IMG/VR virus record: IMGVR_UViG_3300021963_000832
Span: 1 to 20,100 of that record
Direction: 5' to 3' (one strand)
Origin: a virus
DNA: 20,100 nucleotides
How positions within the stretch are numbered: the first letter of the stretch is position 1; every line of letters begins with the position of its first letter. This document shows positions 300-12,526 of the stretch, in pieces. Made by a program: the position numbers and the translations under genes. The notes beneath the pieces were generated by a model. It ran no database searches. It was given only the letters and a program-made list of their open reading frames with translations, and was not told the DNA's origin.

Positions 300-1229
300 T
301 TAGACCAGCTCCAGTTGCTTCGCTATGCGCTCAATCTCAGGCCAAGCGATGAGATGGCACCCGGCCCTGACATTGCCTTCAGCATCGATACTGTCGATTT
401 GGAAGTGCCCTACGGCGATCCTGTGGCCGTTGGTTTCGAACGTCTTCCCATGCGCCCGGCACGCGGCGATAAACGTGAAGGCGCGCTTGGCATGATCGAG
501 CGGCACAGTCGCGCCCTGCGACGTTTGCAGCTCATCGCCTTTGACGCGCAGCAATGCCGGAATGCCGTAGTTCGTGCGATAGTGGTCCGTCTCGCCCTTG
601 AGCCACAACACCGCGCGTTCGGCTTCCGCAAGGCGTGCAATCTCGGCTTGGCGTGCGGCCTTAGCATCGCGTGCGGCTTTGGCCTTGGCACGCTTCGCAA
701 TGGCTTCCGGCGTGTTGTGCTTCTCGAAACGTGCAGCACGGTCCGCGATGACCTTATCGCAATCCAACTCAATATCAATTCTAGGCGCGGCAAGGCCGAA
801 CGCGGCGCAATAGTCGCCTAGTACCTCTAGAGCGCGCCGCGCGGGTGCGCTGTTACTGTCCCACGACCGTCGCCAGGCTTCAAGCGCGTCCCGATATTGC
901 TTTAGGAAATGTGCTTCGTTCGCTTTGTGGTCTAGCTCGTCACTGTGGCGGCTCTGGCCGCCGCGTGCGCCGATAGAAGGCACGCTGAAGCCGCGATAGT
1001 TCAAAGCGCGATAGATTGCGGGCTTATGCTTGCCGCGTGTCGTGTTGCTATAGCCTTCACAGTCGATTAGGGCGACTATGGTGCCCTTGATCGTGTGAAG
1101 CTTAGCGATTGGCGTTCGATACGAATAGATCGTATCGCCTTCAAACCAGAAATTGCCGTTGTTGGAACGCGCGCCGGTCTTCTTTTGATTGGCCCACAAG
1201 TGAGCCACCATTGAATTATTGTTCGACAT
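300..1229 (-). CDS. Conserved-type phage protein of unknown function, 309 aa
   Basis: This is the largest gene of the left operon. Residues about 11-45 (WANQKKTGARSNNGNFWFEG, then TIYSYRTPIAKL) have the look of a short domain found in many phage early proteins of unknown role: a WANQ-type start, a hydrophobic pattern ending in FEG, then an IYSY...PIA turn. The middle (about residues 170-205) is an Ala/Arg/Lys-rich predicted coiled coil. The C-terminal third resembles a compact mixed fold with no motif I recognise. The start is supported by GAGAGGG within the shared leader element (1230-1254). The 56-residue gene follows without a gap. No enzymatic residues are evident. Confidence 0.8.
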   Translation of the reverse strand: MSNNNSMVAHLWANQKKTGARSNNGNFWFEGDTIYSYRTPIAKLHTIKGTIVALIDCEGYSNTTRGKHKPAIYRALNYRGFSVPSIGARGGQSRHSDELDHKANEAHFLKQYRDALEAWRRSWDSNSAPARRALEVLGDYCAAFGLAAPRIDIELDCDKVIADRAARFEKHNTPEAIAKRAKAKAARDAKAARQAEIARLAEAERAVLWLKGETDHYRTNYGIPALLRVKGDELQTSQGATVPLDHAKRAFTFIAACRAHGKTFETNGHRIAVGHFQIDSIDAEGNVRAGCHLIAWPEIERIAKQLELV

Positions 1230-1254
1230 TTTAGCTTCCCTCTCAGGGTTTGCA
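1230..1254 (-). promoter_or_regulatory. Shared leader element, copy A (diverged)
   Basis: On the minus strand this copy reads CTGCAAACCCTGAGAGGGAA just before the ATG at 1229. It keeps the core CCCTGAGAGGG palindrome with the ribosome binding site but differs at the edges from the other copies. The TGA in the core (1245-1243) is also the stop codon of the upstream 100-residue gene, so this copy doubles as the end of a coding region. Confidence 0.75.
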
Positions 1255-1545
1255 GTTAAGATGGGGATAGGCTTTCAGGTGAGTTTCTAACGCGGCTTGC
1301 GCGTCTCGTTTGCGAGGCCAGCCGATACGCACTTTGCCATTGTAGTGTTTGGCCTTGCCATGCCGGACGAAACCGCAAAGCATGACATAGCGGCCTTTTC
1401 CTTTATCCGGGCCATCGGCGTGAACGCCATACTTGTTGGGATCGCGGCCGAAAATGAACCAGCCTGGACCATCGGCGTTTGTGCTCTTTCGCACAAAGAA
1501 ATCCCGGAACTGTGTCCCGTCATAGCCTTCACTGGAAAAATTCAT
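1243..1545 (-). CDS. Small phage protein, 100 aa, unknown function
   Basis: The protein runs from MNFSSEGYDG to LNCKP. Around residues 25-45 it has aromatic and Gly-rich segments (GPGWFIFGRDPNKYG), and the C-terminal half is basic (KAKHYNGKVRIGWPRKRD). I do not recognise a family. The start at 1545 has AGGAGGG in the shared leader (copy B). The stop TGA is embedded in the leader of the next gene, leaving only 13 nt to the next ATG. An overlapping minus-strand frame (1287-1532) is a shadow. Confidence 0.75.
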   Translation of the reverse strand: MNFSSEGYDGTQFRDFFVRKSTNADGPGWFIFGRDPNKYGVHADGPDKGKGRYVMLCGFVRHGKAKHYNGKVRIGWPRKRDAQAALETHLKAYPHLNCKP

Positions 1546-1575
1546 TTGCTGTCCCTCCTAGGGTGTGCAGTGTGG
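1546..1575 (-). promoter_or_regulatory. Shared leader element, copy B
   Basis: On the minus strand it reads CCACACTGCACACCCTAGGA followed by GGGACAGCAA and the ATG at 1545. It matches copies C-E except inside the palindrome centre (CCCTAGGAGGG instead of CCCTGAGAGGG), where the CCCT and AGGG arms are kept. Confidence 0.85.
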
Positions 1576-1587
1576 TTGGCAATCTGT

Positions 1588-1613
1588 AATGCAGCATTGT
1601 TAAATGCTGCATT
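1588..1613. repeat. Perfect 11-bp stem with 4-nt loop after the 187-aa gene
   Basis: AATGCAGCATT (1588-1598) pairs exactly with AATGCTGCATT (1603-1613) around the loop GTTA. It sits 8 nt beyond the stop of the leftward 187-residue gene and just upstream of leader copy B. No clear T-tract follows on the minus strand. It may be a weak terminator, an mRNA-stabilising hairpin or an RNase III site. Confidence 0.75.
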
Positions 1614-1621
1614 GGAGACTG

Positions 1622-2185
1622 TCAATCCGCTTTCGGATTTACCAGTGCGCCAGTCACCACATCATAAACTGGATATGGTGCCTTACCTTCCTCGAACCAA
1701 TCATGTCCGAGGCAATAGGTCTTGACGCCATTTGCGTTGACAATGTTTTCGGCGTTGTCCAGGTCGCCAGCGCCGGGAACACAGGGCGAGCAAAACGGTG
1801 CTAGGGTGTAGTAAGGCGATTGGAGAACGAACACATTCACATCAAGACACGTTGCCAGTTCATACTCGTCGTCCGAATAGGTATGGTCTAGCGGGTCATC
1901 CGGGAAAGCATCGGCGCTGTCCACGGTAATTTCGCAATCCTCGCAAGCATAGTCCGCACAACCAGAGCCATATTGTTCGAACGCACTGGCATCTACCGCA
2001 TCGGACAAATCCGTTAGTGGTGCTATACCTTCAGCGTAGCATTTCGGGCAACAAGGTGGACCATATTGTGGTTCGCTCTCATCATACCAGGCTTGCCCGA
2101 CCGTGCCTTGTGCTATGACGCCATAGCGTATGCCAGTAACACGATCGATGTTCGTTCGTCCCATTCCATAATCGATGCCAGTCAT
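1622..2185 (-). CDS. Acidic Cys-rich conserved-type phage protein, 187 aa, possible zinc ribbon
   Basis: The protein starts MTGIDYGMGRTNIDRVTGIR and has the general pattern of a phage early protein of unknown function: an N-terminal GMG.TNID..TGIRYGVI segment, a middle Asp/Glu-rich part, then SPYYTLAPFCSPCVPGAGDL at about residues 122-141 and YCLGHDWFEEGKAPYPV near the end. Cysteine pairs CCPKC (about residues 45-49) and CADYACEDC (about 76-84) could bind a metal ion. Net charge is strongly negative. The start at 2185 has GAGAGGG in leader copy C. Function is unknown; being shared across unrelated phages suggests an early host- or nucleotide-related role, which is inference only. Confidence 0.85.
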   Translation of the reverse strand: MTGIDYGMGRTNIDRVTGIRYGVIAQGTVGQAWYDESEPQYGPPCCPKCYAEGIAPLTDLSDAVDASAFEQYGSGCADYACEDCEITVDSADAFPDDPLDHTYSDDEYELATCLDVNVFVLQSPYYTLAPFCSPCVPGAGDLDNAENIVNANGVKTYCLGHDWFEEGKAPYPVYDVVTGALVNPKAD

Positions 2186-2215
2186 TTCGCTGTCCCTCTC
2201 AGGGTGTGCAGTGTG
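2186..2215 (-). promoter_or_regulatory. Shared leader element, copy C
   Basis: On the minus strand it is CACACTGCACACCCTGAGAG then GGACAGCGAA before the ATG at 2185. It fills practically the whole gap between the 81-residue gene (ends 2219) and the 187-residue gene, so gap and leader are the same unit. Confidence 0.85.
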
Positions 2216-2218
2216 AAG

Positions 2219-2464
2219 CTAGATTTTTAGCACGGTATAGTCGAGCACGTCACCGCCCTTGTAATCCGCGCCAGTGTGCAAATCATAAGACCAGGTGAAG
2301 CGTGCCTCATCATCGCATGACACTATGGTTTCGCCTTCCTCCAGCTCGCGTGCCTCCCAAGCATCGCACAACGCAATTTCGGCGTCGGTCATGCCCGAGC
2401 TGTCACCGTTGATTAGGTATGATGCCCAATAAGCCGAGCCTGTAATTGTTCGAGTAGTGGCCAT
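2219..2464 (-). CDS. Small acidic phage protein, 81 aa, unknown function
   Basis: The N-terminal half (AYWASYLINGDSSGMTDAEI at about residues 11-30) is followed by an acidic helix (CDAWEARELEEGE), and the end is RFTWSYDLHTGADYKGGDVL then a beta-like DYTVL. This arrangement resembles small early proteins in many unrelated phages, none with a known role to my knowledge. The start at 2464 is set by GAGAGGG in leader copy D. It is followed closely by the 187-residue gene. Confidence 0.8.
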   Translation of the reverse strand: MATTRTITGSAYWASYLINGDSSGMTDAEIALCDAWEARELEEGETIVSCDDEARFTWSYDLHTGADYKGGDVLDYTVLKI

Positions 2465-2494
2465 TTGCTGTCCCTCTCAGGGTGTGCAGTGTGG
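2465..2494 (-). promoter_or_regulatory. Shared leader element, copy D
   Basis: On the minus strand it is CCACACTGCACACCCTGAGA then GGGACAGCAA before the ATG at 2464. It is nearly identical to copy C, differing in the last bases before the start. It directly abuts the 14-bp inverted repeat at 2495. Confidence 0.85.
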
Positions 2495-2544
2495 AAACAA
2501 CGCAAGCCATATCACGTTGGTTGCGAAATAGGCTTGCGTTGTTT
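2495..2544. repeat. Perfect 14-bp inverted repeat between two leftward genes
   Basis: AAACAACGCAAGCC (2495-2508) is exactly complementary to GGCTTGCGTTGTTT (2531-2544), with a 22-nt loop. It lies in the 100-nt gap between the 67- and 81-residue genes and touches leader copy D. The transcript would form a long stable stem. There is no T-tract, so an RNase III processing or stability element is as likely as a terminator. Confidence 0.8.
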
Positions 2545-2564
2545 GGATCATTTGAGCAATTTAA

Positions 2565-2768
2565 TTAGGCGCGATCTGTTGCAGCTTCGTCTAAGGCCAG
2601 GGCTTGCGCCCGTGCCTGGAGCTGTTTCGCCATGCCTTCGTTACACTCGGCAATTCTGACCTGGCTGTCTTTGCCGTGGCGAGCATCAGGCTTGCGCTCT
2701 CGCCACTCTCTCGCGTCGAGCAAGAGCATTGCCGCGGCATTAAGTAATAGGGTGCTGGTCGGTTGCAT
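2565..2768 (-). CDS. Small Ala-rich helical protein, 67 aa, first gene of the left operon
   Basis: The sequence starts MQPTSTLLLNAAAMLLLDAR and continues as a basic/Gln-rich helical stretch to DEAATDRA. The N-terminal hydrophobic segment is short and amphipathic, not a clear membrane span. The start at 2768 is supported by the shared leader (copy E), which is the main reason to accept it. A longer minus-strand frame (2591-2950) overlaps it in another phase but has no ribosome binding site. Function unknown. Confidence 0.7.
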   Translation of the reverse strand: MQPTSTLLLNAAAMLLLDAREWRERKPDARHGKDSQVRIAECNEGMAKQLQARAQALALDEAATDRA

Positions 2769-2795
2769 TTGCTGTCCCTCTTAGGGTGTGCGTGG
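2769..2795 (-). promoter_or_regulatory. Shared leader element, copy E
   Basis: On the minus strand it reads CCACGCACACCCTAAGAGGG then ACAGCAA and the ATG at 2768. Compared with copies C and D it lacks a few bases at its outer end and has CCCTAAGAGGG in the core, again keeping CCCT and AGGG. Confidence 0.8.
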
Positions 2796-2828
2796 TACTG
2801 GTCTAAAACCGCGTTCGGGTTCGTTTGT

Positions 2829-3018: not shown

Positions 3019-3035
3019 GCGCAATTATATTACAC
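3019..3035. promoter_or_regulatory. Operator-like 17-mer, site 2, after a TTGACC box
   Basis: GCGCAATTATATTACAC begins immediately after TTGACC (3013-3018). The left half is perfect and the right half has ACAC for GCGC. The box-then-operator layout is the same as at the capsid promoter (11510-11533). Confidence 0.65.
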
Positions 3036-3170: not shown

Positions 3171-3187
3171 ACGCAATATAATTGCGC
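3171..3187. promoter_or_regulatory. Operator-like 17-mer, site 3
   Basis: ACGCAATATAATTGCGC, whose reverse complement is GCGCAATTATATTGCGT: one mismatch from the consensus palindrome, in the opposite orientation of the central TAT. Confidence 0.7.
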
Positions 3188-3201: not shown

Positions 3202-3218
3202 GCGCAATATTGTTGCGT
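3202..3218. promoter_or_regulatory. Operator-like 17-mer, site 4
   Basis: GCGCAATATTGTTGCGT. Left arm GCGCAAT is perfect; the right arm has two differences from ATTGCGC. It lies 14 nt after site 3. Confidence 0.55.
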
Positions 3219-3227
3219 GGATTATTC

Positions 3228-3244
3228 GCGCAATGATATTTCGG
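3228..3244. promoter_or_regulatory. Operator-like 17-mer, site 5 (degenerate right half)
   Basis: GCGCAATGATATTTCGG. The left arm is perfect and the right arm is partly preserved (ATTTCGG for ATTGCGC). Sites 3-5 start at 31- and 26-bp intervals, roughly three and two and a half helical turns. Confidence 0.45.
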
Positions 3245-4373: not shown

Positions 4374-4501
4374 TGATCTTCTATTCCGATTGGGAGCGCA
4401 CCCCGCTCTGGCTCGTGCTGTGTGGCTATCGATCCTTCCGCCGACGCAAGTGGGAAGGCGACCCTGCCGAGCACGCCTACGTCTGGGAGTACAGCGAGTG
4501 A
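4373..4501 (+). CDS. Tiny basic protein, 42 aa, unknown function
   Basis: MIFYSDWERTPLWLVLCGYR then SFRRRKWEGDP... to VWEYSE. ATG 4373 overlaps the preceding TGA, and its own TGA overlaps the GTG start of the large terminase, so it sits exactly between two coupled genes. It is Trp- and Arg-rich. No family is recognised; the double overlap is the evidence. Confidence 0.6.
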   Translation: MIFYSDWERTPLWLVLCGYRSFRRRKWEGDPAEHAYVWEYSE

Positions 4502-5949
4502 CCGCCCCCAATAAAAAACTCGAAGACGTTCTCGCTACGCTGGAGGCGGTGGCGGAGAAGAAGCTCTTTCACAAGATGCTTTTCTTCAAACCGTACCCGA
4601 AGCAGATCGCGTTCTTCAACATGCAGAAGCGCGAGCGTCTGTTCATGGCGGCCAACCAGGTCGGCAAGACCTATGGCGGCGCATACGAAGCCGCGTGTCA
4701 CGCAACAGGAGATTATCCCGAATGGTGGATGGGAAAGAAATTCGCGAGACCGACGCGCGGCTGGGTGGCGGGAGTGTCCTCGCTTGCAGTACGCGACACA
4801 CAGCAGAAGCATCTCTGCGGTATGCCCGGTGTCACTGCCGACTTTGGCACTGGCTTAATTCCAAAAGCCCGGTTTGCGGACAAGCCTTCCCTTGCTCGTG
4901 GTGTCACCGATGCCTTCGATACTTTGCAAGTGACCCACAAAACAAACGGCGTGCCGGATGGTATCTCGACAGTCCACTTCAAGAGCTTCGAGCAGGGCCG
5001 ACCGAAGTTTCAGGGTGACACGATTGATTGGGGCTGGGGCGACGAAGAAGGCCCGATGGATATCTACCAGGAATTTCTGACGCGCCTTCGCGGCGACGGC
5101 ATCCTGTACAGCACCTTCACTCCGCTGTTTGGCCAAACCGATCTCGTGCTGCGCTTTACCCGTGCTGCGGCCGACAGCGACCGCGGCATGGTGAACATGA
5201 CGCTCGAAGAAGCCGAGCACTTCACCCCGGAGGAAAAGAAGAAGCGCCTCGACGGTTACGCCGCACATGAGCGCGATGCTCGTGCGAAGGGTATTCCGCT
5301 CCTCGGCTCGGGCAAGGTCTTCGACTGCGCGGAGGAGTTCATCACTGAGCCGCGCATCGAGCGCATCCCCGACGAGTGGACAAAGCTGTGGGCAGTGGAC
5401 TTCGGTATGGGCCACCCCTTCGCTGCGGTGTTGCAGCTCTGGGACCGCGATGCCGATATCATCCACGTCCACCACGCGATCAGGATGGAGGGCGCACTGC
5501 CGATCATGCACGCGGCGGCAATGCGCCCCATCGGTGTCAATGTCCCTGTGGCTTGGCCGCAGGACGGGCATCAACGGGAAAAGGGGGCGACGACCGCTGG
5601 CACCACGACCGCGCAACTTTATAAGCAGGCCGGGTTGCAGATGCTCGACCATCACGCGCACTTCGAGGATGGCGGCAACAGCACCGAAGCTGGCATCCTG
5701 GAAATGGATCAGCGGATGAAGACCGGACGATATAAAGTTGCGTCGCATCTCACCGACTGGTTCGAGGAGTACCGCAGCTACCACCGCAAGGATGGCGTGA
5801 TCGTCAAGGTTCGCGACGATCTTATGTCCGCTTCGCGCATTGGCATCATGGCCAAGCGCCACGGCAAGATTGTTACGTTGGGCGGCCGTAAAGTGAAGCG
5901 TCAGTTCAATCAGATGGCGCAGGGCCTTGACTTCGACCCCTTTGAGTAG
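4498..5949 (+). CDS. terL: Terminase large subunit (packaging ATPase-nuclease)
   Basis: Motor that cuts the DNA concatemer and pumps it into the prohead through the portal. Of 483 residues, the ATPase half shows Walker A ANQVGKT (about 52-58), a Walker B region WGWGDEE (about 178-184) with its catalytic Glu, and a coupling motif STFTPL (205-210). The C-terminal RNase H-like nuclease half has acidic residues in VDFGMGHP (D301), WPQDG (D355) and VRDD (D440/D441), typical for metal binding. The start GTG 4498 is preceded by GGAG at 8 nt and overlaps the stop of the 42-residue gene. An upstream extension in the same frame to 4390 would overlap that gene entirely and is rejected. Confidence 0.97.
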   Translation: MTAPNKKLEDVLATLEAVAEKKLFHKMLFFKPYPKQIAFFNMQKRERLFMAANQVGKTYGGAYEAACHATGDYPEWWMGKKFARPTRGWVAGVSSLAVRDTQQKHLCGMPGVTADFGTGLIPKARFADKPSLARGVTDAFDTLQVTHKTNGVPDGISTVHFKSFEQGRPKFQGDTIDWGWGDEEGPMDIYQEFLTRLRGDGILYSTFTPLFGQTDLVLRFTRAAADSDRGMVNMTLEEAEHFTPEEKKKRLDGYAAHERDARAKGIPLLGSGKVFDCAEEFITEPRIERIPDEWTKLWAVDFGMGHPFAAVLQLWDRDADIIHVHHAIRMEGALPIMHAAAMRPIGVNVPVAWPQDGHQREKGATTAGTTTAQLYKQAGLQMLDHHAHFEDGGNSTEAGILEMDQRMKTGRYKVASHLTDWFEEYRSYHRKDGVIVKVRDDLMSASRIGIMAKRHGKIVTLGGRKVKRQFNQMAQGLDFDPFE

Positions 5950-6589: not shown

Positions 6590-6802
6590 ATGACGGCGAT
6601 CATTCTTGTGTTGGTCATCTCTGTCGCCACCGGCACGCCGATCAGTCTGCTCCGCTCGACTGCGCCCATGGCCGCCGACGCCTGCCCTGAGTTCATCGAT
6701 CACATCGTCAAGGAGGGCAAACTTCTTGCAGCGGTTCAGGAACAAAACCAAGAGCCGATCCGGCTCGACATTCAATGTGTCCCCGAAGATAGGGCGAGCT
6801 GA
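6590..6802 (+). CDS. Small exported or membrane-anchored protein, 70 aa
   Basis: ATG 6590 has GGAG 6 nt upstream (6580-6583), shared with the preceding stop. Residues 2-22 (TAIILVLVISVATGTPISLL) are a hydrophobic signal peptide or anchor. The rest is a soluble, acidic part with two cysteines (ACPEF at 31-35 and QCVPE at 62-66) that could form a disulfide in the periplasm. Its stop overlaps the endolysin start, linking it to the lysis block. No lipobox. Function unknown. Confidence 0.65.
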   Translation: MTAIILVLVISVATGTPISLLRSTAPMAADACPEFIDHIVKEGKLLAAVQEQNQEPIRLDIQCVPEDRAS

Positions 6803-7281
6803 TGGCACTCTGGTCACGACCAATAGCAGCGGATACTAAGGGTTTGTGGTTCGCCCTCACCCTTACCATGCTCGCGGGCTACGAGGGCCTGTACACCAAG
6901 GCGTACAAGGACGTTGTGGGTGTCACTACCGTTTGCTACGGCGCAACCAATTCCGACCGCAAGGTGCGGATGGGCGACCAGTACACCGTGCAGGAATGCA
7001 AGGACATGCTCGCGGAGGATATCCCCAAGTACGCCGCGCCGATTGAGAAGTGCGTCAAGGTGCACATGCCGCCGCACCGCAAGGCCGCGCTCGTCAGTCT
7101 CGCCTACAACATCGGCCCGGAGCGCGCCTGCAAATCGACTGTCGTGCGTAAGCTGAACGCGGGCGATGTGAAGGGCGCGTGCGATGCCTTCATGATGTGG
7201 AACCGTGGCGGCGGGCGCGTCATCAAGGGCCTTACCAATCGCCGGGCCAAGGAACGTCTCGACTGCTTGAGGAATGACTGA
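6802..7281 (+). CDS. Endolysin, GH24 lysozyme-type muramidase (possible SAR endolysin)
   Basis: Cleaves the glycan strands of peptidoglycan at the end of infection. The catalytic triad of the phage T4/P21 lysozyme family is visible: E28 in GYEGLYTKAYKD, D37, and T43 in VGVTTVCYG. The fold continues with KAALVSLAYNIG (about 94-105), STVVRKLNAGD (112-122) and FMMWNRGGGRVIKGLTNRRA (130-149). Length 159 is normal. An N-terminal hydrophobic segment (GLWFALTLTMLAGY, 14-27) directly before the catalytic Glu, and Cys45 next to the active site, suggest a signal-anchor-release enzyme as in P21, but the segment is short. The start overlaps the preceding TGA (TGATG). Confidence 0.95.
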   Translation: MALWSRPIAADTKGLWFALTLTMLAGYEGLYTKAYKDVVGVTTVCYGATNSDRKVRMGDQYTVQECKDMLAEDIPKYAAPIEKCVKVHMPPHRKAALVSLAYNIGPERACKSTVVRKLNAGDVKGACDAFMMWNRGGGRVIKGLTNRRAKERLDCLRND

Positions 7282-7637: not shown

Positions 7638-7868
7638 ATGAAGACCGCCGCAATTTTGTTGCTCGCCCTCGCGCTCGCCGGATGCCAGCACACCGACGCC
7701 AACCTGCGCCCGAGCGACACGAGCGCGATTTGTCAGGCCCTCATCGGCCCGATCAAGTACAACTCGCAGAAGAAGGACAGCTCGCGCTATGCTGCGGCCG
7801 TGCTCGCCCTCGATCTTAAGCAGCGCAACCAGGTGGGGCAGGCGCTTCGGTGCCCGCAGTACCGATGA
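7638..7868 (+). CDS. Small lipoprotein, probable outer-membrane spanin (Rz1-like role), 76 aa
   Basis: Likely helps disrupt the outer membrane together with an inner-membrane partner. The N-terminus MKTAAILLLALALAGC is a lipoprotein signal with lipobox ALAGC and lipidated Cys16; the mature part is about 61 residues (SDTSAICQALIGPIKYNSQK... ALDLKQRNQVGQALRCPQYR). The conserved ICxALxxPIxY and LxxRNxxGxxLxCP pattern resembles small lipoproteins found beside endolysins in alphaproteobacterial phages. ATG 7638 has GGAG (7627-7630) 7 nt upstream. It is a separate gene rather than embedded in its partner, unlike lambda Rz/Rz1. Confidence 0.75.
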   Translation: MKTAAILLLALALAGCQHTDANLRPSDTSAICQALIGPIKYNSQKKDSSRYAAAVLALDLKQRNQVGQALRCPQYR

Positions 7869-8019: not shown

Positions 8020-8036
8020 GCGAAATTATATTGCGC
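8020..8036. promoter_or_regulatory. Operator-like 17-mer, site 6, over the transcription start
   Basis: GCGAAATTATATTGCGC, one base from the consensus. It begins four bases after the -10 box of the promoter above, so a bound protein would cover the start point. The Shine-Dalgarno sequence of the next gene follows immediately. Confidence 0.75.
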
Positions 8037-8048
8037 GAAGGTAGTGGC

Positions 8049-8252
8049 ATGGGCCTCCCCAATCCAAAGAACTTCGGATTTGCCTCGGGCGATCTCGGCT
8101 TGGCCGCGATCCTGAACCCCGATCTCATGGACGAACTCCAGGAGAAAAAGAAGAAGGAACTCCAGGCCGCCAGCGAAAACCGGGGGGCTTCTGGCGAGAG
8201 CGTCTTTGGCCGCGCCGCGTCCGGTATGCTCGGCCTGCCGGGAGCAATCTGA
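8049..8252 (+). CDS. Small phage head-module protein, 67 aa, unknown function
   Basis: ATG 8049 has GAAGG 7 nt upstream; a TTG-started extension to 8031 would begin inside the operator and is rejected. MGLPNPKNFGFASGDLGLAA is followed by a Lys/Glu helix (ELQEKKKKELQAASEN) and a small-residue C-terminus (GRAASGMLGLPGAI). It is the first gene of the portal transcript and overlaps the portal start (TGATG). No family is recognised. Confidence 0.7.
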   Translation: MGLPNPKNFGFASGDLGLAAILNPDLMDELQEKKKKELQAASENRGASGESVFGRAASGMLGLPGAI

Positions 8253-9940
8253 TGGCTGACTACGGACTTTCCGTACCCCGCACCATCTCCTCGGCGGAGG
8301 AAGAAGTCGTCCGCGAGAGCATTCTCGAATGGTACGAGCTTGCACGCGTGCGCTCGCCGTTCGATATCCAATACGAGGAAGTGGCTTCGCTGCTCCTGCC
8401 AACCCACCGTGGCAGCTTCACGCAATTCGGGTTCGTCACGCCCGGCACGAAGATGACGGATCGCCAGATCGACGCAACCGGGATGCAGGCGCTTGTCCGC
8501 TTCGGCGCTATTTGCGACAGCCTGCTCACGCCCCGTAATCAGGTGTGGCACGGCCTTGAGGCCAGCGATCCATATGTCATGAAGGATCGCGCCTCGAAGC
8601 TGTGGTTCGAGAGCACGTCACGCAAGCTGTTCAAGATGCGGTACGCGGCGCACGCAAATTTCTGCGCGCAGAACCAGAGCGTCTTCAAGTCGCTCGGCGC
8701 GTTCGGCACCGCTGGCCTGTTCATCGATAAATTCTGGACGCACACCGGGGAGAAGTCCCTGCGCTATACGTCCGTGCCGCTCGGGCATCTGTTTCTCAAG
8801 GAAAACCAGCAGGGGATGGTCGATGGATTTATCAGAGCTTTCCGCTACACAGCTCGCCAAGCCGAACAGAAGTGGCCTGGACGCCTCCCTGCGATTATGC
8901 AGACTTCTCTCAAGAACAACAGTGAGCAGCTATACACCTTCCTGCATCGCGTCTGTCCTCGAACAGATGGCTCCTACGATCCCGGCTCTATCGACAGCCG
9001 ATCTATGTATTGGCGCTCGCTCTACATTTGTGTGGAGGGAAAGTGTCTCATGCAAGCCGAGAGTGGATACAATACCTTTCCACTCGCTCCTGGCCGATAC
9101 GAGCAAGGCCCCAACGCAGTCTATGGCACCAGCCCGGCGATGACCGTGCTCCCGGCACTGAAGACGCTCAATGCCGAGAAGAAGGTCTTCCTCGTATCAG
9201 GCCACCGCGCCTCGACCCCGGTGCTCCTGACCTACGATGACGGCTTGATGAACCTGAACATGAAGCCTGGCTCTATCGTGCCGGGCGGCATGTCCAGCGA
9301 AGGCCGCCCTCTCGTCGGTATTCTCCCCAACGGTGAAATCCAGATCACCAAGGAGATGATGGACGAGGAGCGCAATCTCATCAACGATGCCTTCCTTGTC
9401 ACCCTGTTCCAAATCCTTACCGAGACGCCGACCATGACGGCGACGGAAGTGATCGAGCGCACGAACGAAAAAGGCATCCTGCTCGCGCCGACCGTTGGCC
9501 GACAGGACAGCGAATACAAAGGCCCGCTGATCGACCGCGAACTCGATCTCCTCTCGCAGATGGGCGAGCTGGAGCCGATGCCGGGCGCGCTCAAGGAAGC
9601 CAAAGGCCAGTACCAAATTGTCCACACGTCACCGCTGGCGAAGGCCGCGCGAGCGCAGGAGGCCGCTGGCTTCATGCGTACAGTGGAGAAGGCGGCCGAG
9701 TGGGCGAATATGACGCAGGATGCGTCGATTATGGATCCATTCGACTTCCAGACTGCGATCCCGTCGATTGCCGAAATCCAGAGCGTGCCGGAAAGCTGGA
9801 TGGCTTCACCTGAGATGATGCAGCAGAAGGCGCAGAAGCGTGCCCAGCAGCAGCAAGTGCAGAACCAGATACAGGCGGCCCCGGCCGCAGCCGCGATGAT
9901 GAAAGCGCAGAACGAAGCGCAGGCTGGGCAGGAGGCGTAA
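8252..9940 (+). CDS. Portal protein (podovirus head-to-tail connector)
   Basis: Forms the dodecameric channel at the head vertex through which DNA is packaged and ejected. The 562 residues match the T7 gp8-type connector in size and pattern: an N-terminal helical part (SILEWYELARVRSPFDIQYE at about 23-42), the LLLPTHRG motif (47-54), the segment near 80-110 (MQALVRFGAICDSLLTPRNQ), a central YxxxP-type region, ETPTMTATEVIERTNEKG (about 391-408) on the wing/stem helix, and a Gln/Ala-rich C-terminal tail. The start has GGGAG about 8 nt upstream and overlaps the previous stop. Sequence at about 8820-9120 is lower in GC than the rest, hinting at mosaicism. Confidence 0.95.
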   Translation: MADYGLSVPRTISSAEEEVVRESILEWYELARVRSPFDIQYEEVASLLLPTHRGSFTQFGFVTPGTKMTDRQIDATGMQALVRFGAICDSLLTPRNQVWHGLEASDPYVMKDRASKLWFESTSRKLFKMRYAAHANFCAQNQSVFKSLGAFGTAGLFIDKFWTHTGEKSLRYTSVPLGHLFLKENQQGMVDGFIRAFRYTARQAEQKWPGRLPAIMQTSLKNNSEQLYTFLHRVCPRTDGSYDPGSIDSRSMYWRSLYICVEGKCLMQAESGYNTFPLAPGRYEQGPNAVYGTSPAMTVLPALKTLNAEKKVFLVSGHRASTPVLLTYDDGLMNLNMKPGSIVPGGMSSEGRPLVGILPNGEIQITKEMMDEERNLINDAFLVTLFQILTETPTMTATEVIERTNEKGILLAPTVGRQDSEYKGPLIDRELDLLSQMGELEPMPGALKEAKGQYQIVHTSPLAKAARAQEAAGFMRTVEKAAEWANMTQDASIMDPFDFQTAIPSIAEIQSVPESWMASPEMMQQKAQKRAQQQQVQNQIQAAPAAAAMMKAQNEAQAGQEA

Positions 9941-11457: not shown

Positions 11458-11488
11458 CGCCCCCGCGCAATTATATTACGCGGGGGCG
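11458..11488. terminator. GC-rich hairpin between scaffold and capsid genes, operator in its loop
   Basis: CGCCCCCGCG (11458-11467) pairs exactly with CGCGGGGGCG (11479-11488); the 11-nt loop is CAATTATATTA. The following TAATTATTTCTC is only moderately T-rich, so this is a probable but not perfect intrinsic terminator. The loop and inner stem form operator site 7. Confidence 0.65.
11465..11481. promoter_or_regulatory. Operator-like 17-mer, site 7, inside the hairpin
   Basis: GCGCAATTATATTACGC, one mismatch from the consensus. A further degenerate half-site (GCGTAATTAT, 11486-11495) follows. Confidence 0.7.
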
Positions 11489-11509: not shown

Positions 11510-11540
11510 TTGACACGCGCAATTATCTTGCGCTACCAAT
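11510..11540 (+). promoter_or_regulatory. Candidate major-capsid promoter with operator site 8 in the spacer
   Basis: TTGACA (11510-11515) is followed by operator-like GCGCAATTATCTTGCGC (11517-11533), which occupies the place between -35 and -10. A weak -10 (TACCAA, 11534-11539) follows at an 18-nt spacing. A protein on the operator would occlude the polymerase. The capsid gene starts about 70 nt downstream. Confidence 0.6.
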
Positions 11541-11605: not shown

Positions 11606-12526
11606 ATGAGCGCAAATCTCATCAATCTGTTCACCACGCAGTTCAGCACCAACCTTGAGCTGAAGCTGCAACAGCAGACTTCGATGTTGCGCGGTCGCGT
11701 GACTGAGGGTTCGCATGTCGGTCGGCAGGCTTCGCCGGTCCAGTACATGAACCCGATCAAGATGCAGACCCCGGCCGGGCGCTTCGCCCCCATCGGTCGC
11801 GTCGATACCGACTTCACGCGGCGTTGGGTATTCCCCGCCGACAAAGACCTTCCGCAGCTCGTGGACACGTTCGATGAGCTTCGCACGCTGAACGATCCGA
11901 AGTCGATGTATCCCTCGAACGCTTCGGCGGCCGTCGCCCGCGAGTGGGATGACATTCTGATCGCCGCTGCGTTCGCCACCGCCTACACGGGCGTCGGCTC
12001 CGATAACGCTGCGCTCACCAGCGAGACGTTCAGCACTTCCGACTACCAGATCGCCAGCACCTTCGGCGCGTCGGCCGCTACCGGCCTGACTGTCCCGAAG
12101 CTGGTCGAACTCAAGCGCCTGTTCCGCAAGAACCATGTCGATCTCGACACGGAGCAAGTCACCATCGTCGCTGGCTCGCAGCAGGAGAGCGATCTCCTCA
12201 ACTCGGCCATCGTCACCAGTCGCGACTTCAACGAGAAGCCGGTGCTGGTGGATGGCAAGGTCACGCGCTTCATGGGCTTCGACTTCGTTTGGTCTGAGCG
12301 CCTGGCGACGGCCTCCAACGTCCGTAACGTGATCGCGTTCGCCAAGAGCGGGCTGTACTTGGGTGTCTGGAAGGACATGACCAACATCATCTCGCAGCGG
12401 AACGATCTCACCGGCCACCCGTGGCAGATTTACACGATGATGACCGCTGGCGCGACCCGCTTGATGCCGGGCAAGGTCATGTCGATCCTCTGTTCCGACA
12501 CTTCGGCTGTGGATATCACCCCGTAA
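11606..12526 (+). CDS. Major capsid protein (podovirus type, HK97-fold family)
   Basis: Forms the icosahedral shell. The 306-residue protein starts MSANLINLFTTQFSTNLELK and has the usual pattern of this family: EGSHVGRQASPVQYM (about 35-49), RRWVFPADKDLPQLVD (73-88), a hydrophobic beta/alpha core, SQQESDLLN (about 192-200), FMGFDFVWSERL (222-233) and LGVWKDMTNIISQRNDLTGH (about 252-271) near the C-terminus. It follows the scaffold gene after a 178-nt gap that holds its own terminator, operators and promoter. AGGA lies 3-4 nt before the ATG within GGGATAGGA. Likely highly expressed. Confidence 0.93.
   Translation: MSANLINLFTTQFSTNLELKLQQQTSMLRGRVTEGSHVGRQASPVQYMNPIKMQTPAGRFAPIGRVDTDFTRRWVFPADKDLPQLVDTFDELRTLNDPKSMYPSNASAAVAREWDDILIAAAFATAYTGVGSDNAALTSETFSTSDYQIASTFGASAATGLTVPKLVELKRLFRKNHVDLDTEQVTIVAGSQQESDLLNSAIVTSRDFNEKPVLVDGKVTRFMGFDFVWSERLATASNVRNVIAFAKSGLYLGVWKDMTNIISQRNDLTGHPWQIYTMMTAGATRLMPGKVMSILCSDTSAVDITP

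Follow-up and report, generated by a model that had tools for sequence, protein, structure and literature searches.

The window analysed here is an entire IMG/VR record of 20,100 bases (20.1 kb) from a podovirus-type phage. Its rightward genes encode the small terminase (start 3391), the large terminase (about 4500-5949), an endolysin (6802-7281), the head-tail connector or portal (8252-9940), the major head protein (11606-12526) and tail proteins. Small leftward genes fill the left 2.8 kb. Five of these, with starts at 1229, 1545, 2185, 2464 and 2768, are preceded by a common leader. The leftward starts at 299 and about 51, read from the sequence, have no leader, and none was present at the rightward structural genes (terminase, portal, head and tail were checked). 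The leader is thus restricted to leftward genes. The features of the window are collected in the table.

The window also contains a second repeat family, consisting of palindromes near CGCGCAATTATATTGCGCG (9 matches with up to 2 mismatches, compared with 0.45 expected). Between the leftward and the rightward genes, five copies occupy the non-coding region, and two precede the major head protein; the copy at 11519 follows directly after TTGACA, at the position of a promoter spacer. In appearance these palindromes resemble the operators or stoperators of a phage repressor.

Table. Leader copies, neighbouring repeats and genes in the window
Feature	Position	Strand	Details
Leader copy 1	2766..2798	-	core 2771-2790; centre AAG; before ATG 2768
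Leader copy 2	2462..2494	-	core 2467-2486; centre GAG; before ATG 2464
Leader copy 3	2184..2216	-	core 2189-2208; centre GAG; before ATG 2185
Leader copy 4	1543..1575	-	core 1548-1567; centre AGG; strongest ribosome-binding site, AGGAGG; before ATG 1545
Leader copy 5	1228..1260	-	diverged; CCCTGAGAGGG at 1238-1248; before ATG 1229
14-bp perfect inverted repeat	2495..2544	-	spacer directly upstream of leader copy 2
23-nt inverted repeat (83%)	1576..1625	-	spacer directly upstream of leader copy 4
Gene, 67 aa	2565..2768	-	no family found
Gene, 81 aa, DUF6926-like	2219..2464	-	homologs in Rhodobacter, Brevundimonas and Citromicrobium phages
Gene, 187 aa, Cys-rich	1622..2185	-	homologs in 49 IMG/VR loci
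Gene, 100 aa	1243..1545	-	homologs in Rhodobacter capsulatus phages
Gene, 309 aa, PHROG 7247 (unknown function)	300..1229	-	homologs in Caulobacter, Brevundimonas and Rhizobium phages
CGCGCAATTATATTGCGCG-like palindromes	2965-2977, 3021-3033, 3173-3185, 3204-3216, 3230-3242, 8022-8034, 11467-11479, 11519-11531		ninth match, at 7650, weak

A sequence-only reading of this DNA had described five starts behind a near-identical leader, and our searches bore this out. Allowing up to two mismatches, the core CACACCCTGAGAGGGACAGC matched four times (at 1548, 2189, 2467 and 2771, always on the minus strand), and none was expected from 100 dinucleotide shuffles. The fifth copy (1235-1248, before the start at 1229) has diverged to AAACCCTGAGAGGGAAGC. 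A de novo repeat search returned the same five copies as a single 33-nt family, 64-94% identical to the reference, and the ATG in which each copy ends opens an ORF encoding 67-309 aa. On its own, the bare pattern CCCTNNNAGGGACA was not significant when 2 mismatches were allowed (5 matches, 4.0 expected), so the significance resides in the whole leader together with its position at starts.

The 33-nt leader reads roughly CACACTGCACACCCTGAGAGGGACAGCAA-ATG. Since its AGGG stands at a constant distance of 8-9 nt from the ATG, GAGAGGG (AGGAGGG in the copy before 1545) is the only ribosome-binding site. This site lies within the 3' arm of a CCCT-N3-AGGG palindrome (-3.9 kcal/mol alone), as previously claimed: the arms are present in 5/5 copies and the centre varies (GAG in three copies, AGG in one and AAG in one). 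In four copies further pairing, TGC/GCA or GC/GC, is possible beyond a symmetric internal loop of ACA/ACA, which lengthens the stem (to -6.8). A search of Rfam gave a single sub-threshold chance match and nothing else.

Taken with the preceding T, the centre is a stop codon (TGA, TAG or TAA) in all five copies. Copy 5 overlaps the 3' end of the gene at 1243-1545, and the TGA inside its palindrome is the genuine stop of that gene; this real stop may be the cause of the divergence of the copy. The conserved feature could then be the stop codon, coupling termination to re-initiation. However, three of the four purine combinations yield stops anyway, the other four copies have no convincing upstream ORF ending at the centre stop, and the centres in the second phage described below often give no stop. 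We rejected the coupling reading as not general and regard it as hardly credible.

The five proteins behind the leaders are not paralogous to one another, which agrees with the initial impression that they are unrelated. For four of the genes, homologs turned up in unrelated phages; those whose starts were read have ordinary or other leaders, with the exception of one contig (L036, see below). The leader therefore belongs to the phage and not to the gene. By inference only, the homologs point to an alphaproteobacterial host. The gene at 1622-2185 represents an unnamed Cys-rich family with the motif YC[LF]GHDWFEEGKAPY that is widespread in phage contigs; a pattern scan of GTDB genome contigs found no relatives of it in bacterial genomes.

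An exact search of IMG/VR for the core gave three other matches, none of them at a gene start. A looser leader pattern followed by ATG matched at least 119 stretches, roughly no more than our own rough estimate of the chance expectation for a collection of that size, and no repeated leaders were seen among the 80 loci listed. Among the records searched, the window leader is private to this one; the relatives have other leaders or none.

To our knowledge, start-associated repeats are known in few phages, and we know of no function found for them since their description in 2011. The start-associated sequence (SAS) of Cluster K mycobacteriophages, the 13-bp GGGATAGGAGCCC, has the ribosome-binding site between outer GGG/CCC and is located a few nucleotides before the ATG of unrelated non-structural genes, in one orientation, confined to its phage group and with unknown function (PMC3203893). 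The window leader shares with it a conserved repeat at the position of the ribosome-binding site before several unrelated genes of the same orientation, and the restriction to non-structural genes, here all five in the leftward set. Its sequence, however, differs from GGGATAGGAGCCC, and CCCT-N3-AGGG holds the ribosome-binding site in its 3' arm. The parallel with Cluster K but with a different motif, as drawn in the sequence-only reading, thus holds for position, orientation and gene class. Membership of a named SAS group would call for one motif in several related genomes, and among the records searched the window leader occurs in this one only; it is therefore SAS-like and not a member of a named group. 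Cluster K phages also have ESAS elements, 17-bp imperfect inverted repeats with a common consensus located just upstream. No common repeat of this kind was seen in the window, where the two inverted repeats in the spacers are mutually unrelated.

Microbacterium phages of Cluster EF have the SAS-like GGGAAAGGACCCC, and those of clusters EC, EG and EI have start-linked repeats, which in EC and EG are positioned upstream of the ribosome-binding site (PMC7302621). These are likewise cluster-private repeats before the starts of mostly non-structural genes, but their sequences and hosts differ from ours. The EF repeat agrees with the window leader in position, orientation and unknown function as well. 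In GGGAAAGGACCCC the ribosome-binding site is between the outer arms; that of the window is within the 3' arm. The leader is a new variety of SAS-type start element, and its ribosome-binding site in the arm is a second architecture.

To survey repeated start leaders, we used a de novo detector of repeated 20-mers before starts. It recovered 11 known SAS genes in mycobacteriophage Anaya, the control, and in 80 unrelated loci it detected no family with at least three members. Relatives and gene-sharing phages did have repeated leaders: AGCTCAGCGGAGAAYGACA at four starts in L014, one at two starts in L012 (which may be a local duplication), one at nine starts in L035, and leaders before many small genes of Brevundimonas phage Gurke (L038; CAACAACGGAGACACCCG-ATG) and Citromicrobium phage RXM (L040; GGTCAACAAGAGGAGTGACGCA-ATG). 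Each has its own letters. Gene arrays of this kind thus recurrently have repeated start leaders, each with a private sequence. The leaders of L012, L035, Gurke and RXM have no window-type hairpin around the ribosome-binding site. In Gurke, variable inverted repeats were observed immediately upstream of the leaders, and their arms seem to covary (GCCCCT..AGGGGC, GGCCCT..AGGGCC). The detector also returned L053, again with its own letters; in L053:2995-5441, seven starts have a hairpin of the type CCCC-(GCAC/GCAT/CAC)-GGGG, with varying loop, directly upstream of GGAGGAAATT-ATG.

The same architecture was found in L036, a 28-kb contig that has, at L036:5992, a homolog of the window gene 1622-2185 (58% identity). 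Six leaders of the form AACCT-N4-AGGT enclose the ribosome-binding site, with the centres GGAA (3), AGAT, TGAA and AGAA. All are on the same strand, a few nucleotides before an ATG; there were 0 on the other strand and 0 in a reversed control. Three nearly identical intergenic units of ~85 nt at L036:5900-7130, in each of which the leader follows two strong hairpins, stand before unrelated genes. One of the duplications takes in the last codons of the preceding gene (ETGEIVNP-stop), so that a second, unrelated gene has the same terminal residues. This is direct evidence that spacer-leader units were duplicated between unrelated genes in L036.

The L036 core, CAAACCTNGAAAGGT, matched 42 stretches in IMG/VR, which is near our own rough chance estimate. 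It was also observed before starts at L211:6090-6430 (2 copies) and L215:5763-7232 (4 diverged copies); of the diverged copies, one pairs via G-U (ACUCU-GAA-AGGGU) and one is broken.

It had been proposed that the window genes are cassettes moved by recombination in the leader. Indirect support for this comes from the four genes whose homologs stand behind other leaders and from the duplicated ~85-nt unit of L036. The window repeat does not extend beyond the leader, and the L036-type duplication route is therefore what we infer for this phage.

The suggestion that pairing matters gained moderate support, from conservation but not from energy. When the 11 copies of the two leader families (window and L036) were pooled, the left arms had 0/44 changes, compared with 7/39 in the centres (p=0.004) and 9/44 in the left flanks (p=0.0025), and the right flanks had 16/44; these counts are not independent, because the copies share descent and three of those from L036 are one recent duplication. 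The outermost pair (C-G in the window, A-U in L036) is the only pair changed on both sides. As for background, the ribosome-binding site lies in such a stem at 5% of starts (117/2360), and such a hairpin occurs in 1/45 homologs of the same gene. Based on frequency alone, we estimate a probability of about 0.07 that two of about nine leader families have the hairpin by chance.

About 5-6 kcal/mol is needed to open the ribosome-binding site of the window leaders and 3-6 for those of L036; the median in homologs elsewhere is 1.9. The energy argument that this difference offers (p=2.6e-6 versus homologs in other phages) was rejected: composition-matched shuffles of the upstream sequence cost similar amounts, the real leaders being not higher (p 0.05-0.83). 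The signal thus reflects mostly C-rich leaders and G-rich ribosome-binding sites. The folding z-scores of the window leaders are only -0.7 to -1.7. In the SAS of Anaya, the opening energy is not raised. With the energy argument void, it is the conservation pattern that argues for the hairpin, and as judged from the letters a hairpin at the ribosome-binding site is plausible.

These results bear on an alternative, namely that the leader has no regulatory role. It would then be just a good ribosome-binding site whose copies were made alike by recent local duplication or by gene conversion, useful at most as a short recombination homology, with the palindrome as a by-product. Energies like those of shuffles are in line with this, as are the recent duplication of a whole spacer in L036 and the relatives whose repeated leaders are without hairpins. 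It does not, however, account well for left arms that stay constant while the centre and both flanks vary, or for three L036 copies that have only a 12-13-nt core in common, between unrelated flanks. We consider the absence of a regulatory role rather unlikely.

The T4 RegA sites and the RNA-phage coat-protein hairpin are phage translational operators that overlap the ribosome-binding site. In the same style, the hairpin could be an operator through which a phage-encoded RNA-binding protein switches the whole early set. The element contains the ribosome-binding site, and in four copies the 23-nt stem, interrupted by a symmetric internal loop, is nearly identical, but the likeness to these operators is of architecture only, no binding protein having been found for the window leader. 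The search for a regulator yielded no candidate (that for RegA was without a working control, and much of the genome is absent from the record), and a CsrA domain was absent from nine records (the window and eight related or comparison records). We therefore find an operator of this kind decidedly doubtful.

The repeat could also act in DNA or transcription, as a phage promoter (T7/T3-like ACCCT...AGGGA) or as a repressor site near the start. We take the leader to resemble, loosely, the ends of T3-class promoters. In Cluster K, putative promoters are present in the ESAS elements (PMC11373665). If transcription started at GGG, however, only about 11 nt would remain before the ATG, with no ribosome-binding site; moreover, the spacing to the ATG is fixed and sigma-70 promoters were not above chance. 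No single-subunit RNA polymerase was found in the window or in the eight related or comparison records, several of which are fragments (the positive control worked), and this speaks against a T7-type promoter. An action in DNA or transcription is thus very improbable.

The reading that we favour, and hold to be reasonably probable, is that the leader is a phage-specific start-associated sequence that was copied before small, mutually unrelated early genes and has been maintained as the translation-initiation signal that they share. This SAS-type element probably spread by leader duplication before being retained as the shared signal. Genes would come in from different phages and acquire the resident leader, either by recombination in the spacer-leader unit or by its duplication. 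The ribosome-binding site would be in the 3' arm of a short CCCU-N3-AGGG hairpin, and with this placement the element probably sets or lowers the initiation rate alike for the five genes. For the window phage, we infer hairpin formation in vivo, the shared translational control and the recombination route.

A bolder version of this reading, which we consider unlikely, is that the leader is a plug-in socket: incoming accessory genes would land behind a resident hairpin leader read by a phage RNA-binding protein and so join one translational regulon at once, the window phage and L036 having evolved different letters. If this were true, the differing letters would be as expected of an operator-repressor pair. 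Two phages with different sequences place their ribosome-binding site in a conserved inverted repeat, and mutating such elements would be a simple way to test whether they act through RNA pairing. The finding is relevant to how phages acquire accessory genes with immediate expression, and the leader can flag genuine small genes overlooked by gene finders.
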